Shown piece after piece: positions 859 through 36,902 of a stretch of 64,000 bases of DNA. The notes under the pieces were generated by a model. It ran no database searches and was not told where the DNA came from. It saw only the letters and a program-made list of their open reading frames with translations. Source of the stretch: Polaromonas sp. (GTDB taxonomy: Bacteria; Pseudomonadota; Gammaproteobacteria; Burkholderiales; Burkholderiaceae_C); contig JAKFXR010000043.1 in assembly GCA_021731285.1 (NCBI GenBank), positions 1 through 64,000 of the forward strand, read 5' to 3'. How positions within the stretch are numbered: position 1 is the first letter of the stretch; each line of letters begins with the position of its first letter. Both the position numbers and the translations under genes were made by a program.

Positions 859-1413
859 ATGGCCACCAAAGAAGCATCCTCCAGAAAACCGGCCGCCGCG
901 TCATCCGGAAAGCCCGCAGGCAAACCTGCCGCCAACCTCACCCCCAAGGCTGCGGCTGCGGCCGTGCGCATTGCCGACAATAAAAAAGCCACCTTCAACT
1001 ACCACATTGAAGAACGGTTCGAAGCCGGCATGGTGCTCGAGGGCTGGGAAGTCAAATCCCTTCGCGAAGGCAAGGTTCAGCTGACCGACGGCTATGTGGT
1101 GATCCGCAATGGCGAGCTTTTCATCATCGGCTGCCAGATCAATCCGCTGGGTACGGCTTCGACGCACGTGCGGCCTGATTCGGTCCGCACCAAGAAGCTC
1201 CTCATGCACAAGGACGAGATCCGGCGCCTGATCGGAAAAATCGAGCAAAAAGGCTACACCCTGGTGCCGCTGAACCTGCACTGGAAAGCGGGCAAGGTCA
1301 AATGCGAAGTGGGTCTGGCCAAGGGCAAGGGCGAACACGACAAACGCGACACCATCAAGGACCGCGAAGGCAAACGCGAGGTCGAGCGCGCCATGAAATC
1401 CCGCAGCCGCTAA
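859..1413 (+). CDS. smpB: SsrA-binding protein SmpB
   Basis: SmpB binds tmRNA and delivers it to stalled ribosomes for trans-translation. The core from about residue 39 ([20 protein letters not shown]) to the C-terminal basic tail ([18 protein letters not shown]) has the family signatures, including [14 protein letters not shown]. At 184 residues it is longer than the usual 150-160. The extra length is an N-terminal low-complexity segment of about 37 residues rich in Ala, Lys and Pro. No internal start with a clear ribosome site was evident, so I keep the ATG at 859. No tmRNA gene (ssrA) was found in the window. Confidence 0.95.
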
Positions 1414-1422
1414 GGGCCAGGT

Positions 1423-2553
1423 TCAGCTCAGGTCGCGCAGGGGATGGGTATCGGGGGTCCAGGGACTGGCAAAAAACGCCTGCGTCATCGCTGGCTTGAC
1501 GTCTTCAATCCGGGCCGGGTTCCACTGGGGCGCGTAGTCCTTGTCAATGGCCAGCGCACGTATGCCTTCGACGGTTTCACTGGCAGCGCCGGGGCGCAAG
1601 TGAAAGCAGTGATGCACCATGTCGCGCTCCATGCGCAAATTGTCAGCCAGGCTCATGGTTCGGGCGCGCCGGATCTGCTCCAGCGTCACATGCAGCATCA
1701 GCGGTGAACGCTTGCGCAGGATCGCGCCGGTTTTCCGGGCTTGCTCGTCGGCGGATGATTCAAGCGCATCGACGATGTGTTTGACCCGCGCCAGCGAGAA
1801 ATATGCATCAAATTGACTGTAGGCCCTCACCGGACGGTCACCATCAGCTATCAAATATGTAGCAATCCATTGATCAAGCTCCGCCGCACCAGCAAAGACC
1901 CGGGCACCCAGCTCCTGCCACAAGGCAGGCAGTCTTGCGGCAGGCAACTTGACATCGGCCAGACCCCAGGCCAGCGCGTCGTCGCTGCCGATGGTCACGC
2001 CGGTCAGTGCCAGGTACTCACCGACACTGCCCGGACAGCGGCTCAGGAAATAGCCGCCACCGACATCGGGAAACAGGCCGATGTTGGTTTCGGGCATGGC
2101 CATTTTGGTGTGCTCTGTGACGATGCGGACCTTGGCCCCTTGACTAATCCCCATGCCACCACCCATCACCACGCCGTCCATGAAGGCGATGTAGGGCTTG
2201 GGGTAGTTGTGGATCAGGTGGTTGAGGCGGTATTCCTCTGTAAAGAAGTCATCGAGCGACGAGTCACCTGCCAGCGCCACCTCATGGAAAAAGCGGATGT
2301 CTCCACCGGCAGAAAAACCGCCGAACAAAGCCTCTGGCGTACCGGGCCGGCCCACTTTGTTGGTACCGCGAATCGCCACAGCCAGAATCGCCGGGTCGTC
2401 CCGCCAGGCCAGCAGCGCAGCCGACAGGTCGCGCACCATGGACAGCGACAACGCGTTGAGCGCCTTGGGGCGATTGAGTGTGATGAAGCCGGTCTGCCCG
2501 CGCACCTCGGTCAATACATCGCCACTCGTTTTCAAATGTGTCATCGCGGTCAT
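1423..2553 (-). CDS. Enoyl-CoA hydratase/isomerase family, 3-hydroxyisobutyryl-CoA hydrolase type
   Basis: This crotonase-fold enzyme of about 376 residues most resembles 3-hydroxyisobutyryl-CoA hydrolase of valine breakdown. The oxyanion-hole motifs GGFSAGGDIRFF and GVVMGGGMGIS and the hydrolase-type stretch MPETNIGLFPDVGGGYFLS, with its Glu and Asp, are visible. Length and the long C-terminal helical part (LEQIRRARTMSLADNLRMERD) fit that subfamily better than plain enoyl-CoA hydratases. I start at the ATG at 2553 because it overlaps the stop of the upstream EamA gene as ATGA, implying translational coupling; an ATG five codons earlier is possible. Around 1836-1880 the gene carries a short AT-rich segment resembling the dispersed repeat family 2. 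Confidence 0.8.
   Translation of the reverse strand: MTAMTHLKTSGDVLTEVRGQTGFITLNRPKALNALSLSMVRDLSAALLAWRDDPAILAVAIRGTNKVGRPGTPEALFGGFSAGGDIRFFHEVALAGDSSLDDFFTEEYRLNHLIHNYPKPYIAFMDGVVMGGGMGISQGAKVRIVTEHTKMAMPETNIGLFPDVGGGYFLSRCPGSVGEYLALTGVTIGSDDALAWGLADVKLPAARLPALWQELGARVFAGAAELDQWIATYLIADGDRPVRAYSQFDAYFSLARVKHIVDALESSADEQARKTGAILRKRSPLMLHVTLEQIRRARTMSLADNLRMERDMVHHCFHLRPGAASETVEGIRALAIDKDYAPQWNPARIEDVKPAMTQAFFASPWTPDTHPLRDLS
1836..1880 (-). repeat. Possible family-2 (GCTA...TAGC) repeat inside the hydratase gene
   Basis: The complement of this stretch contains a GCTACATATTTGATAGC core like other family-2 copies in the window (5906, 18887, 41603, 53454, 62317). It stays in frame and encodes part of the segment ATYLIADGDR. 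The match is short, so this may be a decayed copy or coincidence. Confidence 0.35.
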
Positions 2554-3434
2554 GCTCTTTGCTTCCATCCCATCAGTTCATTGGCGACCAGCGCACCGAT
2601 GACCAGCGCGCCGCCGGTCAGCACGCTGCTGCCGGGCACCTCGCCGGCGCCCACCCAGGCCAGCAAGATACCGAAAATAATCTCCAGCAAGGCCAGCAGG
2701 GAAATCTCCGGCGCTTTCAGCACCCTGGCGCAGACCACCGACAACACGCAGGGAATCGCCAGTTGCACCAGGCCAAGCAAGGCCAGCAGCCCAATGTCCC
2801 GCCCTGTCGCCGCAAAAGGAAATGCCAGTGGCAAGGTGGCCAGCGAAGAGATGGCCGCGCCTACCAGCACGGCCGGTACCAGATCGATTTTCTCCCCGTG
2901 CGCCTGGCTGCGCTGCACCACGGTCCAGTTCACTGCAGCGGCCATCGGCACCAGCAGGGCCACCAGAGTACCTGCGAGCTGGCTCGGGCCGTCGTTGAGG
3001 TTGACCTGCGCACCGTGCATCCAGGCGATGCCCGCCCCTGCGACCACGATTGCGAACCAGGTGCGTGCGGGAATGCGGTGACCAATAAACACCCTGGCCA
3101 GCAGCGCTGTGATGAAAGGCCCGACCGCCATGGTGACCAGCACGTTGGCCACCGTGGTCATGGTCAGCGCCACCATGAAGGCGGTGAACATGATGCTCCA
3201 GCAGACGCCGGACACCCACAAGAGACGGCCAGCATGGCGAATCCTTGCAAAAACCTCGCGCCCCTGAAACAGCGGAAGAATCACCAGCAGCGACAGCAGC
3301 GTGAAAAAGCTGCGCCAGAACGTGACTTCAAACGTACGCGCCGACTCCAGATGGCGCGTCACCACCCCGGCGATGGACCACATCAGCGTGATCGCGATCA
3401 TCAGTAAAACGGCGCGGCTGTGGGTCAGTTTCAT
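2550..3434 (-). CDS. EamA/DMT-family permease
   Basis: An inner-membrane transporter of the drug/metabolite superfamily with two tandem EamA units and about ten predicted hydrophobic helices over 294 residues (first helix LLMIAITLMWSIAGVVT). The substrate cannot be told from sequence. I use the ATG at 3434, since GGAG lies five bases upstream and the resulting protein begins just before the first helix; the longer frame adds 16 non-family residues. Its stop overlaps the start of the downstream hydrolase gene, so the two form a translationally coupled pair. Confidence 0.85.
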   Translation of the reverse strand: MKLTHSRAVLLMIAITLMWSIAGVVTRHLESARTFEVTFWRSFFTLLSLLVILPLFQGREVFARIRHAGRLLWVSGVCWSIMFTAFMVALTMTTVANVLVTMAVGPFITALLARVFIGHRIPARTWFAIVVAGAGIAWMHGAQVNLNDGPSQLAGTLVALLVPMAAAVNWTVVQRSQAHGEKIDLVPAVLVGAAISSLATLPLAFPFAATGRDIGLLALLGLVQLAIPCVLSVVCARVLKAPEISLLALLEIIFGILLAWVGAGEVPGSSVLTGGALVIGALVANELMGWKQRA

Positions 3435-3485
3435 CAATGCTCCGAACGTTAATCTCCCCGCGTACCGCTCCGCCCTCTTCAATCA

Positions 3486-3579
3486 AGCAGGGGCCGCGGG
3501 TCCGGCTCCGCCGGCCCGCAGGCGCAGCGGCCCCCTCGGGGGGCAGGGAGCTACGCGCAGCGAGCGACCGTGGGGGCCT
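3486..3579 (-). repeat. Family-1 GC-rich repeat, copy G, after typA
   Basis: Read on the minus strand it begins GGCCCCCACG two bases after the typA stop TAG, continues through a CCCCCCGAGGGGG palindrome and ends GCGGCCCC, the type II tail. It lies between typA and the EamA gene, in the orientation of typA. Compare copies at 12511, 13848, 16046, 23582, 44137, 44308 and 57811. Confidence 0.85.
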
Positions 3580-3580
3580 A

Positions 3581-5404
<1,824 letters not shown>

Positions 5405-6950: not shown

Positions 6951-9833
6951 TCAGGCTTCCAGTGTCCTTGCGACTTCCCGGATTTCAAAGAACTCCAGAA
7001 TGTCGCCAACCTGGATGTCGTTGTAACCCTTGACGTTCAAGCCGCACTCGAAGCCTTCCTTGACCTCCTTGGCATCGTCCTTGAAACGCTTGAGGGAATC
7101 GAGCTCGCCGGTGAAGACGACCACGTTCTCGCGCAGCAGACGCAGGCGCGCGGTGCGGCGAACCACACCTGCGGTGACCATACAGCCGGCAATCGAGCCG
7201 ATCTTGCTGACCTTGAAGACCTGGCGAATCTCGGCATTGCCGATGACTTCTTCCTTCTTGTCCGGTGTCAGCATGCCCGACATGGCAGCGCGCAACTCGT
7301 CCACAGCGTCATAAATGATGTTGTAGTAACGGATATCGACGCCATTGTTCTCGGCCAGCTTGCGGGCCTGGGCATCGGCGCGGGTGTTGAACCCGATCAG
7401 CACGGCCTTGGACGCAATCGCCAGGTTGACGTCGGATTCGGAAATCCCGCCGACAGCGGAGTACACCAGCTGCACCTTGACCTCGTCGGTCGACAGCTTG
7501 AGCAGGGACTGCGCCAGCGCTTCCTGCGAACCCTGCACATCGGCCTTGACGATGATGGGCAGCATCTTGACCTCGCCTGCGCCGATGTCGGAGAACATGT
7601 TCTCCAGCTTGGCAGCCTGCTGCTTGGCCAGCTTGGTGTTGCGGAACTTGCCGGCGCGGTAAGTGGCGATCTCACGGGCCCGGCGCTCGTCGAGCATGAC
7701 CATGAATTCATCGCCGGCCTGCGGCACTTCGGTCAGACCCTGGATTTCGACCGGAATCGACGGGCCTGCTGTCTTGATCGGCTTGCCGTTTTCGTCGAGC
7801 ATGGCGCGAACGCGGCCATAGGTCGAGCCGGCCAGCACCACGTCGCCGGTTTTCAGCGTGCCGGCCTGCACCAGCACGGTAGCCACGGGGCCGCGGCCCT
7901 TGTCGAGCTGGGCTTCGATGACCAGGCCTTTGGCCAGCGCATCGACCGGAGCGCGCAGCTCCAGCACCTCGGCCTGCAGCAGCACCTGCTCCAGCAGGGC
8001 ATCAATGCCTGCGCCGGTGCGGGCTGAAACGCCGACAAATGGCACATCGCCGCCAAACTCTTCGGGAATCACCTCTTCGGTCACGAGTTCGCCCTTGACC
8101 CGGTCCAGGTTGGCATCGGGCTTGTCAATCTTGTTGATGGCCACAACGATGGGCACGCCCGCCGCTTTGGCGTGTTTGATCGCCTCTCTGGTTTGCGGCA
8201 TCACGCCGTCGTCCGCCGCCACCACCAGGATCACGATGTCGGTGGCCTTGGCGCCACGCGCACGCATGGCAGTGAAGGCTTCGTGGCCCGGGGTGTCCAG
8301 GAAGGAGACCATACCGCGCGGTGTTTCCACGTGGTAGGCGCCAATGTGCTGGGTAATGCCACCGGCTTCGCCAGCAGCGACCTTGGCCGTACGGATATAG
8401 TCCAGCAGCGAAGTTTTGCCATGGTCGACGTGGCCCATGACGGTGACCACGGGCGCGCGCGGCAGCAACTCTGCCTGCGGTCCTGACGTGTCGTCATCGG
8501 TGAAGGCTTCCGGATCGTCCAGCGCGGCGGTGATGGCCTTGTGGCCCATCTCTTCCACGACGATCATCGCGGTGTCCTGATCCAGCGGCTGGTTGATGGT
8601 GACCATCTGGCCCAGCTTCATCAGGTGTTTGATCACCTCGGACGACTTGACGCTCATCTTGTGCGCCAGCTCGGCCACCGTGATGGTCTCGGGCACGTGC
8701 ACTTCAATGACCTTGAACTCGGTCGGCGCCACAAAGGTGGACTCTGGACGTGCGTCGCGGTCCGAGCTGCGACGGCCACGCGGGCCGCCACGGAAATTGC
8801 CGCGGCCAGGCACCGCGGTCGCACCGCGGGTCTTGATCTCGCCCTTTTTCTTGGCAGCGTCGTCCTTCCAGGTGGACGACAGGTTTTCGGACTTGATTTC
8901 TTTCTTGCCCGCGGCACCGGCGGCTGCAGGCGCACCCGGCGCGGCCGGTTTGGCGCCAGGCACGACGGCCGGCTTGTGCAAGGTGCCCTTGATCGGCGCT
9001 TTGGGGTCGACGTGGGGGACCAGAACACGCTTGGGCGCATTCATCATCGCGCGAATGCCGGCAGCCTCAGCTTCGGCCTTCTTGCGGCGGTCCTGCAAGT
9101 CCTGCTCTTTGACGGCATCGGCCTGAAACTCGGCCGTCGCCTTGGCTTTGGCTGCGGTGACTTCTGCGGCTTTGGTGGCGGCCAATTCGGTCGCGGCGCC
9201 ATCGGCGACTGCCGGAGCTTCGGCCGCAACGGTTTTACTTGCGCGCTTGCTGGCGGGTTTTTCCGGTTTGGCGACGAGATCGGCAAGCTTGGCGGCGGCC
9301 GCGGCGGCCTGCTCGGCAACCAGTTTTTCCTGCTCACGCTGGTCTTTGGCGTCCTGTTCCTCGCGCAGACGGCGCTTTTCAGCCAGTTCTTCTTCCTGGC
9401 GGCGCAGCAACTCGGCGTGGCGGCTGGCTTCCTCCTCGCGGCGGATCAACTCGGCGTCATCGATCACCGGCGCTTGCGGCGCGGCCACTCCGGCTGGCGC
9501 TGCATCTTCGGCGGCGGCTTCGGAGCCTTCGTCACGCTTGACGAAAGTCCGTTTTTTGCGCACTTCGACCTGAATGGTGCGGGCGCGGCCGGTGGCGTCG
9601 GCCTGCTTGATTTCGCTGGTCGATTTCTTGACCAGGGTGATTTTCTTGCGCTCGGCGCTGGCCGTGCCGTGGCTGGCCTGCAGGTAGCTGAGCAGTTTCT
9701 GTTTGTCGGCCTCGGACAGTCGATCCTCGGCTTGCGCCTTGGCAACACCCGCACTGGTCAATTGCTCGATCAGCGTGGCGGTGGGTTTATTGAGTTCAGC
9801 TGCGAATTCAGCGACGGTAGTGGTACTGGACAT
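6951..9833 (-). CDS. infB: Translation initiation factor IF-2
   Basis: IF-2 places fMet-tRNA on the 30S subunit and promotes subunit joining. The 960-residue protein has an IF2_N domain (residues 1 to about 53), a long Ala/Lys/Glu-rich linker that is probably coiled or disordered up to about residue 380, a second IF2_N-like part, and the GTPase with GHVDHGKTS near residues 465-473, DTPGHEAFT and NKIDKPDAN. Domains II-IV follow and end [12 protein letters not shown]. Length is at the long end for the family because of the linker. It is 27 bases downstream of nusA. Confidence 0.97.
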
Positions 9834-9860
9834 ATGTGTTTTTCCTGACGGCCTCCATGA

Positions 9861-11387
9861 TCATTGCTCTTCGGCCGCTGCAGGTGCAGGGGTCTCAGCG
9901 GGCGCGGCTTCATCGGTAAACCAGTGAGCGCGCGCGGTCATGATCAGGGCTTTGGCTTCGTCCGCAGACTGGCCGGTGATATCGGTGAGTTCGTCGACAG
10001 CCAGGTCGGCCAGGTCGTCGCGGGTATGGATACCCGCCTCGGTCAGCTTGGTGATCAGCTCGGGCGTGAGGCCTTCGACATCGCGCAGGTTCTGCGAGAC
10101 GCCCTCGGCGTTTTCTTCCTTGGCGATTTCCATGGTCAGCAGCGCATCCTTGGCGCGTGTACGCAGCTCGGTCACAGTGTCCTCATCGAAGGATTCAATT
10201 TCCAGCATTTCCTGAATGGGCACATAGGCCACTTCTTCCAGGCTGGTGAAACCTTCGGAGATCAGGATGTCGGCGATTTCTTCGTCCACATCGAGCTTTT
10301 CCATGAACAGCTTGCGGCTGGTGTCGGTCTCGGTGGCCTGCTTTTCAGCGGACTCGTCGGCCGTCATGATGTTGATCTTCCAGCCGGTCAGCTCGGCGGC
10401 AAGGCGCACGTTCTGGCCACCACGGCCGATGGAGATCGCGAGGTTTTCCTCGTCCACCACCACGTCCATGGCATGGCGCTCTTCGTCCACCACGATGGAC
10501 GAGACATTGGCCGGAGCCAGTGCGCCAATCACAAACTGGGCCGGGTCTTCGCTCCACAGGACGATGTCGACACGTTCGCCGGCCAGCTCGTTGGTGACGC
10601 CATTGACGCGGGTACCGCGCACGCCAACGCAGGTGCCAATGGGATCGACCCGCTTGTCATGCGACAGCACGGCGATCTTGGCGCGCGAACCGGGGTCACG
10701 CGCGCAGGACTTGATCTCCAGCAAGCCTTGCTCGATTTCGGGCACTTCCTGGCGGAACAACTCGATCATGTACTCGGGCGAGGTGCGCGACAGGATGATG
10801 GGCGCGCCACGCAGGGTGGTGTCGACTTCCATGATCATGGCGCGAACGCGGTCACCGGAACGCAGGTTTTCCTTCGGAATCATGTCACCGCGGCGCAGGC
10901 GGCCTTCAACGCGGCCGGACTCGACAATGATGTCGCCCTTGTCCATGCGCTTGACGGTACCTACGAAAATTTTGTCGCCGCGCGACATGAAGTCGTTGAG
11001 CAGCATTTCGCGCTCGGCATCGCGGATTTTTTGCAGAATGACCTGCTTGGCCGCCTGGGCACCGATGCGTCCGATAGGAAGACTTTCAACCGGCTTTTCA
11101 ATGTAGTCGCCCTCTTCAATGTCGGCGATTTCTTCGCGTGCATCGCTGACCAGCTCTTCGGCTTCGGGATTTTGCAGGCCGGCTTCGTCGGGAACGACCA
11201 GCCAGCGGCGGAAAGTTTCGTAGTTGCCACTGTCACGGTCCACCACAACACGGATGTCCGTGCCCTCGGCGTACACCTTCTTGGTCGCAGAGGCGAGCGC
11301 GAGCTCGACCGCGCCGAAGACGACGTCACGTTCAACATTTTTCTCACGCGAGATGGCATCAACCAACATCAACAGTTCGCGATTCAT
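9861..11387 (-). CDS. nusA: Transcription termination/antitermination factor NusA
   Basis: NusA binds RNA polymerase and modulates pausing, termination and antitermination. From the ATG at 11387 ([18 protein letters not shown]) it is 508 residues: N-terminal RNAP-binding domain, S1 domain (about residues 135-200), two KH domains ([18 protein letters not shown] in KH2) and two C-terminal acidic helix-hairpin-helix repeats (near [15 protein letters not shown] and [11 protein letters not shown]). The frame extends 34 codons upstream into the rimP gap, without family character. It follows rimP by 19 bases. Confidence 0.97.
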
Positions 11388-11406
11388 TTCACAAGCCTGC
11401 CTTTCT

Positions 11407-11985
11407 TTATATCTCTGTTCCGGGCGCCGCTTTCGGCCGGCGCCCCTTGAAGTCCACCACAGGCGCCAGACGCGCCTGCACAATTTCATCGAGGGTAAAG
11501 CCCAACGCCTGCAGCGGCGGCGGCACCCTCTTCCTGCTTACCTTCTGGCCGGGCTTGGCCTCTGGCTCGTCGCTCCAGACAATCTGCCACCCGGTGGCGG
11601 CGCGCTCCAGCGTGCCGCGGAATTTCTTGCGGTTGGCCGACACGGCCGAACCGGCAACTGCCGCAATCCCAATCGGCGTTTTCAGCGTGATGTCCACCAG
11701 CTCGCCGGCGAAGCGCTCAAAATCCTTTTCGCTGCGCAAAGGCCGGTCAATGCCCGGCGAGCTCACCTCGAGCCGGGAATAGGCCGCGCCTTCGACTTCC
11801 AGCACAAACTGCAACTGGCGGGTGACTTTTTCGCAGTCTTCCGCATTGATGAACCGCTCTTCGGTCCCGGCGCTGTAAGCATGGTCAATCGTCACACGCA
11901 GCAAGCCGCCGCCGGTCCGTTCTATGTCGACAAGCTCGTAACCCAGTCCGGTGACTGTCTGCTCAATCGTCTCGTGTAAAGCCAT
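11407..11985 (-). CDS. rimP: Ribosome maturation factor RimP
   Basis: RimP assists 30S assembly. The 192-residue protein has the N-terminal RimP domain ([18 protein letters not shown], then [11 protein letters not shown]) and the [19 protein letters not shown] signature leading to the Sm-like C-terminal domain. It is about 40 residues longer than the E. coli protein because of a basic C-terminal extension, common in this family of bacteria. It is the first gene of the rimP-nusA-infB-rbfA-truB-typA run; the promoter should lie in the 12,000 region. Confidence 0.94.
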
Positions 11986-12048
11986 TCAGTTGCAAAAAAC
12001 GCCTGTAAATTCAAAGGCCTGATCAAAAGTTGTAAAAACAAACGCCCA

Positions 12049-12080
12049 AAAAAAATGGGCGGTGAAAACCCGCCCATTTG
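12049..12080 (-). terminator. Intrinsic terminator of the yej operon
   Basis: AAATGGGCGG (12054-12063) and CCGCCCATTT (12071-12080) form a perfect 10-bp stem with a 7-base loop. On the minus strand the stem is followed by a run of eight T. It lies 74 bases past the yejF stop and upstream of rimP, so it separates the two leftward transcripts. Confidence 0.85.
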
Positions 12081-12154
12081 GTCGTGAAGGGCATATTCTA
12101 CCCCTTCAGGTGCCCCCGTGCAAGCAGTTTACGTGCCCGGACCGACTCAAAGCC

Positions 12155-13933
12155 CTACATTTGCGCGGCGACCAGCGTCCGTGTGTAGGGATGTTCGGGT
12201 TGCTGCAGCACCTTGTCGACAGAACCCGATTCCAGGACCTCGCCGTCCTTCATGACGATCACCTGGTGGGCCATGGCCCGGATCACATCCACGTCATGGG
12301 TGATCAGGAGGTAGGCCAGGCCTTTTTCGCGTTGCAGGCGCTGCAACAGCGCCAGCACCTGCTTCTGGATGGTGACGTCCAGCGCGCTGGTCGGCTCGTC
12401 CAGCACCAGCAGCTGCGGCTGCACGATCAGGGCCCGGGCGATGGCCAGCCGTTGCCTCTGACCACCCGAAAACTCATGGGGGTAGCGCTGCAGCAGACCG
12501 GGGAAATTCTGCCCCCACGCTCCCTCACTGCGTGTAGCTCGCTGCCCCCCAACGGGGTGGGCTCCGTCCTGGGGCGGCCTGGCGACTGCGCTCTGCTCCG
12601 CGCCAAGGCCCACCTCCTCCAGCATCTGAAGCACCCGCTCGCGACGCCCCTCGCGATTGAGGTCCGGCTCATGGACCAGCAAGCCTTCACCGACGATCTC
12701 TTCCACCGTCATGCGCGGCGACAGCGAGGAATAAGGGTCCTGAAACACCACCTGCACCACCCGGCGTATCGCCTTGTTGGCCACAGTGTCGGGGCCCCAC
12801 TGGCGTCCGACCACGTCGAGCGCGCCCGCATAAGGAAGCAGCCCCAGCGCGGCCATGGCCAGCGTGGACTTGCCCGAGCCGGACTCGCCCACCACACCCA
12901 GGGTGCGACCGGGCTGGATGGCAAAAGCCGCTCCCTTGACGGCGACGAATTCGCCTTTTCTGAACCAGCCCCGGATGCCCGGAATGGGAATGGGGTAGCT
13001 GACCCGCAAGTCCCGGCCCTGCATCACCGGTGCGGCCTGCATGGACAGCTCTTGCGGGACGTCCCGCTGGGGCCGGCTGTCGATGAGCTTTCGGGTGTAC
13101 GCGTGCTGCGGATGCGAAAACACCTCGTTGACGCCACCACTTTCGACCAGATGGCCGTTTTCCATCACCGCCACCCGGTCGGCAAAACGCCTCACCATGT
13201 TCAGGTCGTGGGTGATCAGCAGCACAGCCATGCCGGTCTGGCGCTGCAAGTCAGCCAGCAGTTCGAGCATTTGCACCCGCAGTGTCACGTCCAGGGCGGT
13301 GGTCGGCTCATCGGCCAGCAGCAGTTTGGGCCGGCCCGCCAGAGCCATGGCAATCATGGCGCGCTGGCGCTGCCCGCCCGAGAGCTGGTGCGGATAAGCC
13401 TGGGCGCGGCGCGCTGGCTCGGGAATGCCGGTGGCAGCCAGCGCCTCGATGGCCGAATCCCAGGCCTGGCGGTTGGACAGGCCCTGCTTGAGCTGCAGCA
13501 CCTCGGCGATCTGGTTGCCCACGGTGTACAGCGGATTCAGGGCCGTCATGGGCTCCTGAAAAATCATGGCGATTTCACGGCCCCGGATGGCACGCAGCTC
13601 GCGCTCTGAAATGGACAGCAAATCAAGGCTGGGAGACGCAGGGTCAGCGCCCGAAAGCATGGCCGAACCGGAGATGTCAGCGTTCAAGACCAGCCGCAGC
13701 AGCGCCAGCGCGGTGACGGTCTTGCCCGAGCCTGACTCACCCACCAGGGCCAGCTTCTCGCCGGGGTGGATGTGGAGGTCCACGCCGTGGACGACTTCCT
13801 TGTCGCCGAAGGAGACGCGCAGGCCTTTGACGTCGAGCAGTGGGGCGTGTCCCGCCGCCGGGCCGCCCCAAGGCGGGACAGCCCCCTCGGGGGGCAGCGA
13901 ACCACGCGCAGCGGGGAGCGTGGGGGCCATCAT
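12155..13933 (-). CDS. yejF: Dipeptide/oligopeptide ABC transporter, dual ATP-binding protein (YejF type)
   Basis: A fused pair of ABC ATPases energising a Yej/Opp-type peptide importer. Walker A motifs are GESGSGKT near residue 64 and GESGSGKS near residue 348; signature sequences are LSGGQRQRA and FSGGQRQRL. At 592 residues it is longer than E. coli YejF (529). Two extra pieces account for this, both encoded by family-1 repeats: residues 2 to about 28 at the N-terminus, and about residues 448-474 just before the second signature motif. The start ATGATG overlaps the yejE stop. No good start exists between the N-terminal repeat and the ABC domain, so the repeat seems to be translated. Confidence 0.9.
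   Translation of the reverse strand: MMAPTLPAARGSLPPEGAVPPWGGPAAGHAPLLDVKGLRVSFGDKEVVHGVDLHIHPGEKLALVGESGSGKTVTALALLRLVLNADISGSAMLSGADPASPSLDLLSISERELRAIRGREIAMIFQEPMTALNPLYTVGNQIAEVLQLKQGLSNRQAWDSAIEALAATGIPEPARRAQAYPHQLSGGQRQRAMIAMALAGRPKLLLADEPTTALDVTLRVQMLELLADLQRQTGMAVLLITHDLNMVRRFADRVAVMENGHLVESGGVNEVFSHPQHAYTRKLIDSRPQRDVPQELSMQAAPVMQGRDLRVSYPIPIPGIRGWFRKGEFVAVKGAAFAIQPGRTLGVVGESGSGKSTLAMAALGLLPYAGALDVVGRQWGPDTVANKAIRRVVQVVFQDPYSSLSPRMTVEEIVGEGLLVHEPDLNREGRRERVLQMLEEVGLGAEQSAVARPPQDGAHPVGGQRATRSEGAWGQNFPGLLQRYPHEFSGGQRQRLAIARALIVQPQLLVLDEPTSALDVTIQKQVLALLQRLQREKGLAYLLITHDVDVIRAMAHQVIVMKDGEVLESGSVDKVLQQPEHPYTRTLVAAQM
12511..12590 (+). repeat. Family-1 GC-rich repeat, copy A, inside yejF
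   Basis: Reads GCCCCCACGCTCC, then a CCCCCCAACGGGG palindrome, then CTGGGGCGGCC (type I tail) on the plus strand, antisense to yejF. The reading frame stays open, adding about 27 residues (SEGAWGQ and neighbours) between the second Walker A and the signature motif of YejF. Confidence 0.85.
13848..13930 (-). repeat. Family-1 GC-rich repeat, copy B, at the yejE/yejF junction
   Basis: On the minus strand GGCCCCCACGCTCC starts one base after the yejE TGA and is preceded by the ATG of yejF, so the element itself is the 5' coding end of yejF. It contains the CCCCCCGAGGGGG palindrome and the CTTGGGGCGGCCCGGC tail (type I). Confidence 0.85.
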
Positions 13934-33619: not shown

Positions 33620-33654
33620 GCTCGCCCGTGCGCCTTTCTTTAGGCGGAAACAGG

Positions 33655-33680
33655 TGAAGTATGTACTTGACAAACCCTTA
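33655..33680 (+). repeat. Left terminal inverted repeat of the IS1595 element
   Basis: GAAGTATGTACTTGACAAAC followed by CCTTA. It contains a TTGACA at 33667-33672 that can act as a -35 box for the transposase, with AACAAT 17 bases further at 33690-33695. Confidence 0.88.
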
Positions 33681-33717
33681 GACAAGGGTAACAATCAGGC
33701 CATACCGAAAGAAAACC

Positions 33718-34644
33718 ATGGCCGCAATATTCGAACTCCCCCACTTCCAAGACGCTGACAAGGCACGCGAGTACCTTGAAAACCTCCGCTGGGCTGATGG
33801 CGTTGTCTGCCCTCATTGCGGCGTTATTGACGGTCATTACAAATTGCAGGGCAAGTCCACCCGCCCCGGCGTTTACAAATGCGGCTCATGCTCTGAGCAG
33901 TTCACCGTCACTGTTGGCACGGTGTTTGAGCGCTCCAAGATCAAGCTCAATGTCTGGCTGCAAGCCGTCCACCTGATGAGTGCCAGCAAAAAGGGCATCA
34001 GCGCCAAGCAGATCGAGCGCATGCTCGGTGTGTCTTACAAAACTGCGTGGTTCATGTGCCATCGCATCCGCGAAGCAATGACCCCCAACATCTATAACAA
34101 GATGGGTGGCCCCGGCACCATCGTGGAAGCTGACGAAACCTATTGGGGCAACAACAAGGCCGCGAAAATTCAGCGCGGCGCAAAAATGAAAATCGTCTCA
34201 CTGGTTGAGCGCGAGACGGGCCAAAAGCGTTCGTTTCACGTTGCCAATGTCACCAGCGAAACCGCCCGCGCCGTTCTGAAATCACAGGTACATCACGAAA
34301 CGCACTTGATGACTGATGAATCCAACATCTACACCAAGGTTGGCCGTCAATTCGCTCAGCACAGCACCGTGAACCACGGCGTTAAAGAATACGCCCGTGG
34401 CAACGTTACTAGCAATACCGTTGAGTCATCCTTCGCCATCCTGAAGCGCGGCCTCACAGGCACGTTTCACAGCGTCTCTGAGCGCCATTTGCAGCGCTAC
34501 GCTACCGAGTTCGACTTCCGCTGGAACTACCGCTCAGCCAATGGCTTCAATGACATTGAACGCGCTGATGCAGCCCTTAAAGCCATCGGTGGCAAGCGCC
34601 TGACTTATCGGCGGATTAACGGCCAGCAAAGCGCCCACCTTTGA
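33718..34644 (+). CDS. IS1595-family transposase
   Basis: A 308-residue ISXO2-like transposase, full length and apparently intact. The N-terminal zinc ribbon has CPHC (about residue 30) and CGSC (about residue 59). A helical DNA-binding part follows (ISAKQIERMLGVSYKTAWFM). The catalytic domain has its first Asp in VEADETYWG (about residue 139), the second in MTDESN (about 199) and the final acidic site in NTVESSFAILKRG (about 235). Expression could come from the TTGACA in the left terminal repeat. Two further genes on the same strand follow within the element. Confidence 0.95.
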   Translation: MAAIFELPHFQDADKAREYLENLRWADGVVCPHCGVIDGHYKLQGKSTRPGVYKCGSCSEQFTVTVGTVFERSKIKLNVWLQAVHLMSASKKGISAKQIERMLGVSYKTAWFMCHRIREAMTPNIYNKMGGPGTIVEADETYWGNNKAAKIQRGAKMKIVSLVERETGQKRSFHVANVTSETARAVLKSQVHHETHLMTDESNIYTKVGRQFAQHSTVNHGVKEYARGNVTSNTVESSFAILKRGLTGTFHSVSERHLQRYATEFDFRWNYRSANGFNDIERADAALKAIGGKRLTYRRINGQQSAHL

Positions 34645-34737
34645 AAGCCTTGTAGCTAAGCTACTTGGCAGCAAGGGTAAAACCTAAAAGTCCAGCGCCG
34701 CCACACGCTACAGTCCATAGCTTCACAGGGGGAAGCT

Positions 34738-35064
34738 ATGCGAGAACTAAAGGTAATGGTCGCGGTCGATGGAATGGACGGGTTTTCGCTCTGCGATGCT
34801 ATCGAGCTGCAAGGCGGAATTTGGCTCGTGCCCAAATGGATCGAATCCCCATCCGAAGGATGGAAAACCCCAGCGCGAATGTTTCTGATGAACTTACTCC
34901 CGCATCAGAAAATGGGAGGGGATTGGCCGAATGAATATGTACTAAGCGAGTCACTGCCCAAAGAGTTGTTCGACGGGAGCGACACGTCGAAACTAGATAT
35001 TCGGTTCTCTGTTCAAGATGCGCCGATTGCCATCCAGATACCGATAACAAAGGGTGTTCACTAG
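34738..35064 (+). CDS. Hypothetical passenger gene in the IS1595 element
   Basis: A 108-residue acidic protein (starts MRELKVMVAVDGMDGFSLCD) that I do not recognise. There is no signal peptide or membrane segment. A strong GGGGGAAG ribosome site precedes the ATG, and an intrinsic terminator follows the stop by 17 bases, so it is a well-formed gene. Its place between the transposase and the right terminal repeat makes it cargo of the element. Confidence 0.65.
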   Translation: MRELKVMVAVDGMDGFSLCDAIELQGGIWLVPKWIESPSEGWKTPARMFLMNLLPHQKMGGDWPNEYVLSESLPKELFDGSDTSKLDIRFSVQDAPIAIQIPITKGVH

Positions 35065-35080
35065 TCATTTCTAGTCCACA

Positions 35081-35110
35081 AAAAACCGGCTCACTTGGCC
35101 GGTTTTTCTT
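35081..35110 (+). terminator. Intrinsic terminator inside the IS1595 element
   Basis: AAAAACCGGC and GCCGGTTTTT form a 10-bp stem with a 7-base loop, followed by a T-rich run. It ends the transposase and first passenger transcripts. Confidence 0.85.
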
Positions 35111-35217
35111 TTTCAGGTTGAGGTTTAACCTTGGGGTCTGGTGGCGTGTCAAGCATGCGCTTTAGTACGTCATCAAATACAGGTGGTTTTCCGTCCGGGA
35201 TTTCAGGAGGTTTGTTC

Positions 35218-35766
35218 ATGGGTGACGATCCGGTAAATGACTTGATGGCTAAGTTCTGTCAAGCATTAGGCTATTTTATTTATTCCTACGTCCAGGCCGA
35301 GTCTCACCTGAAGCGCGTTGCGATCCACAAAACTGGAGTTCAAGAAAACATCGGACGCGCTCTGTATGCGTCGGCGAGGGTCAAACCCATTATCGATACG
35401 CTTCGCAGGATTCAAGAGGGCTTGGAGGTGAAAAATCATGTTCGCCTACAAGAGGCCTTTGCACAGTTTGCGACCATCACCGAAATGCGCGACAAGCTTA
35501 TGCATCAAGGCTTCCATGTAAAACAAGACCTCACGATTGAAACGACCAATGGGTACATCTCCAATGCGAATAATCGCAAGACATTTCTGGTTTCCATTGA
35601 TGACCTTCAACTAATGTCCTCCGATCTTGCTCTTATTCAAGCGCGATTTTCGGTTTACGGCATGCCTCCACCTAGCGGCCCGGACGAAGCGGTGAAGGCT
35701 TACCTTGACGCGCTTGAGCCAACTTTATCCGCTCCATTTCGGTATAAATTTCCCTCGCCAAAGTGA
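35218..35766 (+). CDS. Hypothetical passenger protein with a HEPN-like motif
   Basis: A 182-residue protein starting at the ATG at 35218, which follows a perfect AGGAGG site. Residues are mostly helical, with a motif TEMRDKLMHQGF near residue 95: Arg, four residues, His. This Rx4H pattern and the helical context (LGYFIYSYVQAESHLKRVA earlier) resemble HEPN domains, which are often RNases in toxin-antitoxin or abortive-infection systems, or non-enzymatic scaffolds. No other family assignment can be made. It lies after the terminator of the first passenger gene, so it probably has its own promoter. Its 3' end overlaps the leftward small gene. Confidence 0.6.
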   Translation: MGDDPVNDLMAKFCQALGYFIYSYVQAESHLKRVAIHKTGVQENIGRALYASARVKPIIDTLRRIQEGLEVKNHVRLQEAFAQFATITEMRDKLMHQGFHVKQDLTIETTNGYISNANNRKTFLVSIDDLQLMSSDLALIQARFSVYGMPPPSGPDEAVKAYLDALEPTLSAPFRYKFPSPK

Positions 35767-35887
35767 AATTGTCGTAGGTGTCTGCGATCTCATCCAGACG
35801 CGCACAACCAGCCGAAACCATTTCCGGCGTAATCTCAACAACGGCTTGAGCAACCGGCCTGTCACGCGGCTCGATTATTGGGCTCAT
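35672..35887 (-). CDS. Small hypothetical passenger protein, convergent with the HEPN-like gene
   Basis: A 71-residue frame from the ATG at 35887, or 78 residues from the ATG at 35908 inside the terminal repeat. The stretch ITPEMVSAGCARLDEIADTY followed by a Tyr/Met/Glu-rich helix resembles short proteins of phages and plasmids that I cannot name. It overlaps the HEPN-like gene by 95 bases on the opposite strand, like some antitoxin partners. The strong promoter in the right terminal repeat points into it but lies inside its first codons, so the true start is uncertain. Confidence 0.45.
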   Translation of the reverse strand: MSPIIEPRDRPVAQAVVEITPEMVSAGCARLDEIADTYDNFTLAREIYTEMERIKLAQARQGKPSPLRPGR

Positions 35888-35902
35888 ATTAGGGTTTGTC
35901 AA
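35874..35902 (-). promoter_or_regulatory. Sigma-70 promoter in the right terminal repeat
   Basis: On the minus strand TTGACA (35897-35902), 17 bases, then AATAAT (35874-35879). The -35 box is part of the terminal repeat, as in the left end (33667). It would drive inward transcription against the rightward passenger genes. Confidence 0.55.
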
Positions 35903-35914
35903 ATACATACTTCG
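35889..35914 (-). repeat. Right terminal inverted repeat of the IS1595 element
   Basis: Read on the minus strand this is GAAGTATGTATTTGACAAAC then CCTAA, differing from the left end at two of 25 positions. Confidence 0.88.
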
Positions 35915-35957
35915 CGGAAACAGGCATAATGAACCAAGTAATTAGCTTGAATAAGAT

Positions 35958-36902
35958 ATGAATCTTCACCAATTTCGTTTTGTCCAGGAAGCCGTCCGGC
36001 GCAACCTGAACCTCACCGAGACAGCACGCGCGCTGCACACCTCGCAACCCGGCGTCTCCAAGGCCATCATCGAGCTGGAGGAAGAACTCGGCGTCGAGAT
36101 TTTCGCGCGGCACGGCAAGCGCCTCAAGCGCGTGACAGAGCCCGGAGAGCATGTGCTCAAAAGCATTGAGCTGATCATGCGGGAGATCGGCAACCTGCGG
36201 CGCATCGGCGAGCAGTTCTCGGCCCAGGACAGCGGCACCCTGTCGATTGCCACCACCCACACGCAGGCCAGGTATGTGTTGCCGGTGCCGGTTGCCAGGC
36301 TGCGCGAAGCCTTCCCCAAGGTCAATGTCAGCATGCACCAGGGCTCGCCCGACCAGGTCGCCCGCATGCTGATCGACGAAGTTGCCGAGATCGGCATTGC
36401 CACCGAATCCCTCACCCAGTACGAAGAGCTGGTCACCCTGCCCTGCTACGAATGGCAGCACATGCTGGTGATGCCTGCAGACCACCCCCTGGCCAGCCAG
36501 GAAAACATCACACTCGAAGAACTCGCGCAGCAGCCGCTGATCACCTACCACCCGTCGTTTACCGGCCGCACCAAGATTGACCTGGCCTTTGCCGCCAAAC
36601 GCCTGCAGCCGCGGATTGCGCTGGAAGCGATCGATTCCGACGTCATCAAGACTTACGTGCGCCTGGGCCTTGGGGTGGGCATCGTGGCCGAGATGGCGCT
36701 CAAGGACGATGGCACCAACAGCGACCTGCTCTCCCGCGCGGCCGGACCTCTGTTCGGTGTGAACGTGGCGCGCGTGGCTTTCAAGCGCAGCTCTTATCTG
36801 CGCAATTTCGTCTACAAATTTGCCGAGCTGCTCAGTGACAAACTCGACCGGGCCGCAATCACCAAAGCCATGAGCAGCCGCCACAACGAGATGGAGCCCT
36901 GA
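35958..36902 (+). CDS. cysB: CysB-like LysR-type transcriptional regulator
   Basis: A 314-residue LysR regulator close to CysB/Cbl. The DNA-binding part has MNLHQFRFVQEAVRRNLNLT, TARALHTSQPGVSKAI and ELGVEIFARHGKRL, and the effector domain has TTHTQARYVLPVPV and YHPSFTGRTKID, which are typical of CysB. CysB-type proteins activate sulfate uptake and cysteine synthesis when O-acetylserine or N-acetylserine is present; Cbl acts on sulfonate use. The sulfate importer at 55,714-59,784 is the obvious local target. An IS1595 element ends 43 bases upstream of the ATG, so the native promoter has been displaced or replaced. Confidence 0.9.
   Translation: MNLHQFRFVQEAVRRNLNLTETARALHTSQPGVSKAIIELEEELGVEIFARHGKRLKRVTEPGEHVLKSIELIMREIGNLRRIGEQFSAQDSGTLSIATTHTQARYVLPVPVARLREAFPKVNVSMHQGSPDQVARMLIDEVAEIGIATESLTQYEELVTLPCYEWQHMLVMPADHPLASQENITLEELAQQPLITYHPSFTGRTKIDLAFAAKRLQPRIALEAIDSDVIKTYVRLGLGVGIVAEMALKDDGTNSDLLSRAAGPLFGVNVARVAFKRSSYLRNFVYKFAELLSDKLDRAAITKAMSSRHNEMEP

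Follow-up and report, generated by a model that had tools for sequence, protein, structure and literature searches.

What does a small transposon carry when it carries more than its own transposase, and where might such cargo have come from? This question is raised by a locus of Polaromonas sp. (assembly GCA_021731285.1, contig JAKFXR010000043.1), of which positions 1 to 64,000, a stretch of 64,000 nucleotides (nt) referred to here as the window, were analyzed. Positions 33654-35915 of the window form an intact IS1595-family transposon with TTGACA within its inverted repeats and an exact 8-bp target duplication. Part of its cargo is a HEPN-like gene together with a small open reading frame (ORF) that converges on the 3′ end of that gene. 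We lean towards the view that the transposon has captured a prophage-derived defense pair resembling Tha/Ith of staphylococcal phages, in which a HEPN RNase would be held by an inhibitor or antisense brake. The features concerned are the following, with protein lengths in amino acids (aa):

33646-33653, no strand: left target-site duplication, GGAAACAG; the same 8-mer stands at 35916-35923 (one of four placements)
33654-33701, plus strand: left terminal inverted repeat (TIR); a sigma70-like promoter in it (TTGACA-17-AACAAT, 10/12) precedes the transposase
33718-34644, plus strand: intact IS1595-family transposase, 308 aa, zinc ribbon and DDE domains, matched by Pfam and NCBIfam
35218-35766, plus strand: P0001, HEPN-like protein, 182 aa; E28, R91, D92 and H96 invariant in six of six aligned sequences
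35672-35887, minus strand: P0002, candidate inhibitor, 71 aa; overlaps the P0001 gene by 95 nt and has homologues at loci L007/L038, L009 and L037
35868-35915, minus strand: right TIR; a sigma70-like promoter in it points inward (TTGACA from 35902, AATAAT to 35874, 11/12)
35916-35923, no strand: right target-site duplication, GGAAACAG; the same 8-mer stands at 33646-33653

An intact IS1595 element had been placed at 33655-35914 in the initial annotation, and this was borne out with ends at 33654 and 35915. A DDE transposase with a zinc ribbon (Pfam DDE_Tnp_IS1595, 2.8e-32, and Zn_ribbon_IS1595, 1e-13; NCBIfam NF033547, 1.8e-54), TIRs and an 8-bp target duplication, which is typical of the IS1595 family, are all present. 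The TIR arms (33656-33701 and 35868-35913) are 76% complementary over 46 nt. The two flanks have 11 nt in common, GCGGAAACAGG, which allows four placements of the 8-bp duplication; we took it as GGAAACAG because the resulting ends resemble those of two related elements, L031 and L044. With 520 placements tried, an 8/8 match had a chance probability of about 0.008. Since two promoter-like sites were found in the element and 1.8 were expected in shuffled sequences, the TIR promoters are not evidence on their own. One copy of the element was found in the genome (assembly 87.6% complete, 169 contigs). A LysR-type regulator ORF, assigned by eye, begins at 35958, 42 nt downstream of the element (gap 35916-35957), and the insertion may change its expression.

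P0001 is quite probably a HEPN protein. As described in PMC3710099, the HEPN active site comprises an Rx4-6H motif, a polar residue following the Arg and an upstream acid. The Rx4H motif that had been pointed out in a helical protein is present as R91-DKLM-H96 (RDKLMH), where a predicted helix ends. In an alignment of six sequences, in which the homologues are 22–30% identical to P0001, 19 columns are invariant, and the motif, the polar residue (D92) and the upstream acid (E28) were found in all six. The Arg and His, on whose constancy the HEPN assignment had been staked, thus do not vary among the aligned homologues, and a distant relative in G768 (L058; E 3.1e-7) has RNEVVH at the motif.

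Because homologues occur in other genomes, P0001 is more than a chance ORF; the protein family to which it belongs is rare. Matches to it were present in four of 298 further genomes sampled from its bacterial family, and a six-row profile matched 6 of 398 other genomes of a larger draw. Five of the latter were kept; the sixth, G742 (E 3.6e-4), apparently lies in an IstB-like IS21 ORF and was treated as a chance match, leaving six of seven positives among 399 genomes, own genome included. Two viral contigs also matched, and since L038 repeats part of L007 exactly over its first 9,000 bases, they count as one new locus. Profile A1 matched none of 368 other genomes of a class-wide draw, in which at most eight first-look candidates were scored per genome, and nothing in genome contigs. 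Single-sequence searches of viral contigs, genome contigs, plasmids and phages with P0001, and of phage records and viral contigs with the L005 homologue, returned no match, and the L037 homologue retrieved only itself from viral contigs. At L006, near the homologue of G212, another Rx4H ORF was noticed by eye (8518-9198; YRNSLVHG; no Pfam match), as was a Tn3-family transposase (9421-12366), and these surroundings are possibly a defense island.

P0002 corresponds to the gene of 71-78 residues that had been annotated as converging on the HEPN-like 3′ end, and that placement holds; its product would be 78 aa if translation started at the ATG at 35908, inside the TIR. It is more than a chance ORF because homologues stand in the same place at three other loci, where they converge on the HEPN-like gene with overlaps of 134 nt (L007/L038), 179 nt (L009) and 125 nt (L037). 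The pair is kept at four of the six aligned HEPN-like loci, or four of seven counting G768. When the single P0002 query was run against 250 family genomes at E ≤ 0.05, four matched: its own, G190 (1.9e-4), G018 (0.016) and G079 (0.042). The best two among the 249 other genomes, G190 and G018, both adjoin a HEPN-like gene. A four-row profile recovered its own genome, G190, G018 and, marginally, G188 (0.008) from 250 genomes. G188 and G079 were rejected as homologues, being marginal, with no HEPN-like match listed and no P0002-like ORF seen by eye. The P0002 query found nothing in phage records.

We considered that the conservation of P0002 might be a mere mirror of the HEPN-like C-terminus (PWRYKxP antisense to EIYTAME). 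This was judged insufficient because the antisense strand of L002 and L004 has no P0002 motifs, though PWRFK/AWKFK is retained, and because, at three of the four loci, the HEPN-like ORF does not cover the ITPEMxxAG part. Over 24 codons, the P0002 frame was the best of six and free of stops (score 116); the runner-up was an antisense frame (score 103), which is interrupted by a stop at three of the four. In L009 these codons fall within the HEPN-like ORF; at the other three loci nearly all of them lie beyond it.

Of the four loci with the pair, three are phage or prophage DNA, as judged by Peptidase_S24, integrase, lysozyme and single-stranded DNA-binding protein (SSB) genes, and no IS1595 transposase was seen at L007/L038, L009 or L037. 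L037, a viral contig from IMG/VR, has genes for a helicase and an S24 repressor; in it the stop of the CI/S24 repressor gene and the start of the HEPN-like gene overlap (TGATG). L007 carries a phage lysozyme gene, a Cro/CI-type helix-turn-helix gene and an integrase gene. L009 has S24 repressor and SSB genes, the repressor lying about 4 kb off on the same strand as the HEPN-like gene. The HEPN-like copy in the window is not in a cI operon. In L007, near-identical rve-like transposase ORFs (3648-4214 and 10936-11811; one shortened, IS3-type by eye) flank the HEPN-like region, and the first of them abuts an antirepressor-like ORF.

The closest anatomical parallel that we consider, and one that the initial annotation had not named, is Tha/Ith of the Staphylococcus phages 80alpha and PhiNM2. 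PMC11087260 shows Tha-1 to be a HEPN RNase (R265NSIMH270) that a minor tail protein triggers and the Ith protein inhibits, with opposed transcription toggling the two states. In 80alpha, ith-1 (annotated as xis; 1525-1725, plus strand) and tha-1 (1662-2567, minus strand) converge with a 64-nt overlap beside the CI-like repressor region. Both systems have an R-x4-H protein, HEPN in Tha and HEPN-like here, whose gene lies in the lysogeny region of a temperate phage in 80alpha and, among the present loci, clearly so in L037, and both have a small convergent gene across the 3′ end of that gene (66 aa in Ith, 71 aa here; overlap 64 nt versus 95-179 nt). They differ in that Tha, at 301 aa, has an extended N-terminal region that is missing from the 182-aa P0001, and in that the pair described here also occurs within an IS1595 transposon, away from cI. 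We regard the pair as Tha/Ith-like by anatomy and do not class it as a member of Tha/Ith.

Passenger genes are known in IS1595 elements. Ten further transposase loci were examined (L031, L032 and L044-L051; three more plasmid matches stand outside the counts). Both ends were found in seven of the ten (L031, L044, L046, L047, L048, L050 and L051), as in the window; an exact 8-bp duplication is present in seven of these eight elements out of 11 examined, L047 having none and that of L051 being an A-run. The ends of L046 were placed by hand from its repeat, and the cargo of L032, L045 and L049 was assigned by adjacency because no end pair was found. Recognized cargo was as follows:

L044: PemK (1.1e-9), PIN_10 (1.6e-9) and DUF433 (1.3e-6), above the curated cut-off
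L049: PIN (3.4e-12), above the curated cut-off; by adjacency
L050: PIN (5.2e-6), above the curated cut-off
L046: P63C (5e-17), above the cut-off; CopG antitoxin (2e-5), below the cut-off
L048: MethyltransfD12 (2.8e-17); PADLOC PD-Lambda-5 A (1.4e-124) and B (1.8e-117)
L032: PIN (3e-4), below the cut-off; by adjacency

Recognized toxin-antitoxin (TA) or defense genes are therefore present in four of the ten loci (L044, L048, L049 and L050), or six including matches below the cut-off. The long cargo ORFs of L031, L045 and L047 were given no family, and L051 has just a small annotated ORF. L048 (4910-8725, on a plasmid of Mesorhizobium sp. AR07) is an IS1595 element with the exact duplication AATTTTTC; it carries PD-Lambda-5 complete with A and B, plus a small accessory ORF. 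The passenger-bearing relatives (L044, L046, L048 and L050; by adjacency L032 and L049) share with the window element the transposase family, TIR style and, where both ends were found, 8-bp duplications, the TIRs of L047, L048, L050 and L051 differing in detail. They differ from it in cargo: PemK with DUF433/PIN_10, P63C with a CopG-like gene, PD-Lambda-5 or PIN, with no HEPN seen among them. Among the open-licence papers listed by literature searches, no title or abstract opening dealt with HEPN cargo in IS1595 elements, from which its absence from print is not established.

The initial annotation had proposed a mobile TA or defense module. A mobile defense module fits, because prophages harbor homologues and TA or defense genes occur in sister transposons. 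The classical TA part was not borne out: the genes are convergent rather than in an operon, and HEPN/MNT toxin-antitoxin was rejected because no MNT nucleotidyltransferase partner was found. A related explanation is that P0001 is a constitutively toxic HEPN RNase and P0002 its type II protein antitoxin, the two forming an addiction module that stabilizes the transposon or replicon. The clear TA genes of the sister elements (PemK, DUF433/PIN_10 and PIN) speak for it. So does a precedent among Tn3-family transposons: PMC7157771 lists TA cargo in 39 of 190, including one HEPN/MNT case. TnSod9 from that source, with a HEPN protein as transposon passenger, resembles the present element with its HEPN-like protein and differs in its transposon family (Tn3), its nucleotidyltransferase partner and the orientation of both genes on the same strand. 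Besides the convergent, non-bicistronic arrangement and the lack of an MNT domain, G212, G131 and the distant G768 have the HEPN-like gene without a P0002 gene, and a constitutive toxin would hardly be tolerable there. We consider a constitutively toxic addiction module of this kind unlikely.

Several results weigh against the reading of a captured Tha/Ith-like pair, the first group concerning P0001 itself. Pfam, PHROGs, NCBIfam and PADLOC made no HEPN call on it, although PADLOC 2023 and NCBIfam fail to recognize Tha itself, so the silence of these two means little. Counting for HEPN, though insignificant (E 0.037), the best match among solved-structure profiles was Csm6, aligned on R-x4-H. 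For a model of P0001 built with 3 sequences (pLDDT 67.9, pTM 0.65), the best Foldseek match was an unrelated chemotaxis protein (E 0.2); none in the PDB reached E ≤ 0.001, and one viral model was matched at E 0.008. Also in favor of HEPN, on a second-look fold list HEPN proteins made up 5 of the best 16 rows (Z 4.5-7.3), among which we take HepS 9oij and 7bxo to be HEPN proteins:

2hsb: Z 7.3, root-mean-square deviation (rmsd) 3.0, 103 residues aligned
Csm6 6tug: Z 6.5, rmsd 4.3, 114 aligned
Gifsy-1 HepS 9oij: Z 6.0, rmsd 3.7, 110 aligned
MtlR 6kcr: Z 4.8, rmsd 3.2, 100 aligned
Toxin-antitoxin 7bxo: Z 4.5, rmsd 4.2, 103 aligned

HepS is a prophage protein similar in fold to the P0001 model; a profile search gave no sequence match to it at E ≤ 10. 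MtlR is counted as HEPN in PMC3710099. Unrelated helical proteins match the model equally well (best row Z 7.6), all Z scores are below 8, and for a model of the L037 homologue, the rows listed out of 91 chains included no HEPN protein. The fold evidence for HEPN is thus only suggestive. P0001 could accordingly be imagined as a non-nuclease helical bundle in which R-x4-H is structural, as no HEPN profile or fold match is significant; all four HEPN active-site positions are nonetheless invariant though the homologues have diverged to 22–30% identity, and we hold this to be very unlikely. At the sequence level, hhalign found no similarity between P0001 and Tha or between P0002 and Ith (probability 0.2 for both), in a weakly powered test that set profiles of six and four rows against single sequences.

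A second group concerns P0002. Its gene was not found at L006 (G212), L008 (G131) or the distant G768, and its profile had no match anywhere in these three genomes; P0002 is therefore not obligatory, being absent at three of seven HEPN-like loci. Single-query support is thin, because G018 reached just 0.016 and the unconnected G079 0.042, and the four-row profile was built from these same loci. Within the element no promoter-like site lies upstream of the P0002 ATG. Because that ATG (35887) is upstream of the −10 of the right TIR promoter, this promoter could give an antisense RNA and not full-length P0002, which in the transposon may be expressed only by read-through, or never. The brake may accordingly be an RNA, rely on read-through from outside or be damaged. 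The missing promoter and the three loci without P0002 would both suit a HEPN-like gene acting as stand-alone phage defense beside an unrelated, hitch-hiking phage gene without a role. P0002 homologues nevertheless span the HEPN-like 3′ end at four loci whose HEPN-like proteins are 25–27% identical to P0001, and outside those loci only marginal P0002 matches occurred in the 250 genomes. We regard stand-alone defense as quite unlikely.

If the pair is a captured Tha/Ith-like module, P0001 would be an RNase that arrests or kills the cell upon phage infection. P0002 would keep this RNase in check, either as a small dedicated inhibitor protein or through its antisense transcript as a brake. During lysogeny of the phage, the CI repressor and the RNase would be expressed together; upon prophage induction the small antisense gene would take over, as experiments have demonstrated for Tha/Ith of 80alpha. 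In the transposon, the pair would serve as portable abortive-infection or addiction cargo, the capture presumably having run from phage to IS1595 element. A more specific scenario, which we put forward as doubtful, is that an independently evolved Tha/Ith-like switch of Burkholderiaceae-type phages became cargo of its own transposon and lost its lysogeny timing; the inward promoter of the right TIR would make the antisense strand, and the IS end would perhaps set the balance between immunity and autoimmunity.

Besides the transposase, the element carries four ORFs. The three extra genes of the initial annotation are present; the fourth, the 42-aa P0004, had been missed. The features beyond the pair are:

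34738-35064, plus strand: P0003, cargo ORF, 108 aa; no family match, one plasmid tblastn match
35081-35107, plus strand: terminator-like hairpin, overlapping P0004 at its end; weak (1 found, 2.8 expected in shuffles)
35091-35219, minus strand: P0004, accessory ORF, 42 aa, FDDVLRRMLSTPPxPKK-like; recurs in some related IS1595 elements

P0002, P0003 and P0004 had no Pfam match even at E 5. The single plasmid match of P0003 was in Geminicoccaceae (CP122394; 31% over query residues 17-96). The ATG of P0004 overlaps that of P0001 (CATG). Its tblastn matches were in L044 (5e-8), L031 (2e-5), L032 (0.002) and L045 (0.002), with L048 at only 0.064, and a similar ORF in L046 was seen by eye only. P0004-like ORFs of 42-55 aa thus occur at varying positions in L031, L032, L044 and L045, and perhaps in L046 and L048, beside quite different cargo. 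In L044, an IS1595 element at 1125-4151 with an 83% identical transposase, the PemK gene lies on one strand and the DUF433 and PIN_10 operon with the P0004 homologue on the other, the homologue being the last ORF of this minus-strand PIN operon. The DNA of the window element is 80% identical to that of L044 through the transposase; past it, similarity above chance level is limited to the start of P0004 (69% over 71 nt, E 0.006, ending at 35222) and the TIRs. The boundary at which cargo was swapped is apparently at the P0004/P0001 start, because the similarity stops there.

If the reading of a captured Tha/Ith-like pair is right, the HEPN RNase with a convergent antisense inhibitor known from staphylococcal phages would be a recurrent solution across unrelated phages, and such a design would be transferable from a phage onto a 2.3-kb transposon. 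The IS1595 elements themselves would then appear as small, swappable carriers of TA and anti-phage systems, including complete PD-Lambda-5, and would offer a simple path by which defense genes enter plasmids and chromosomes.

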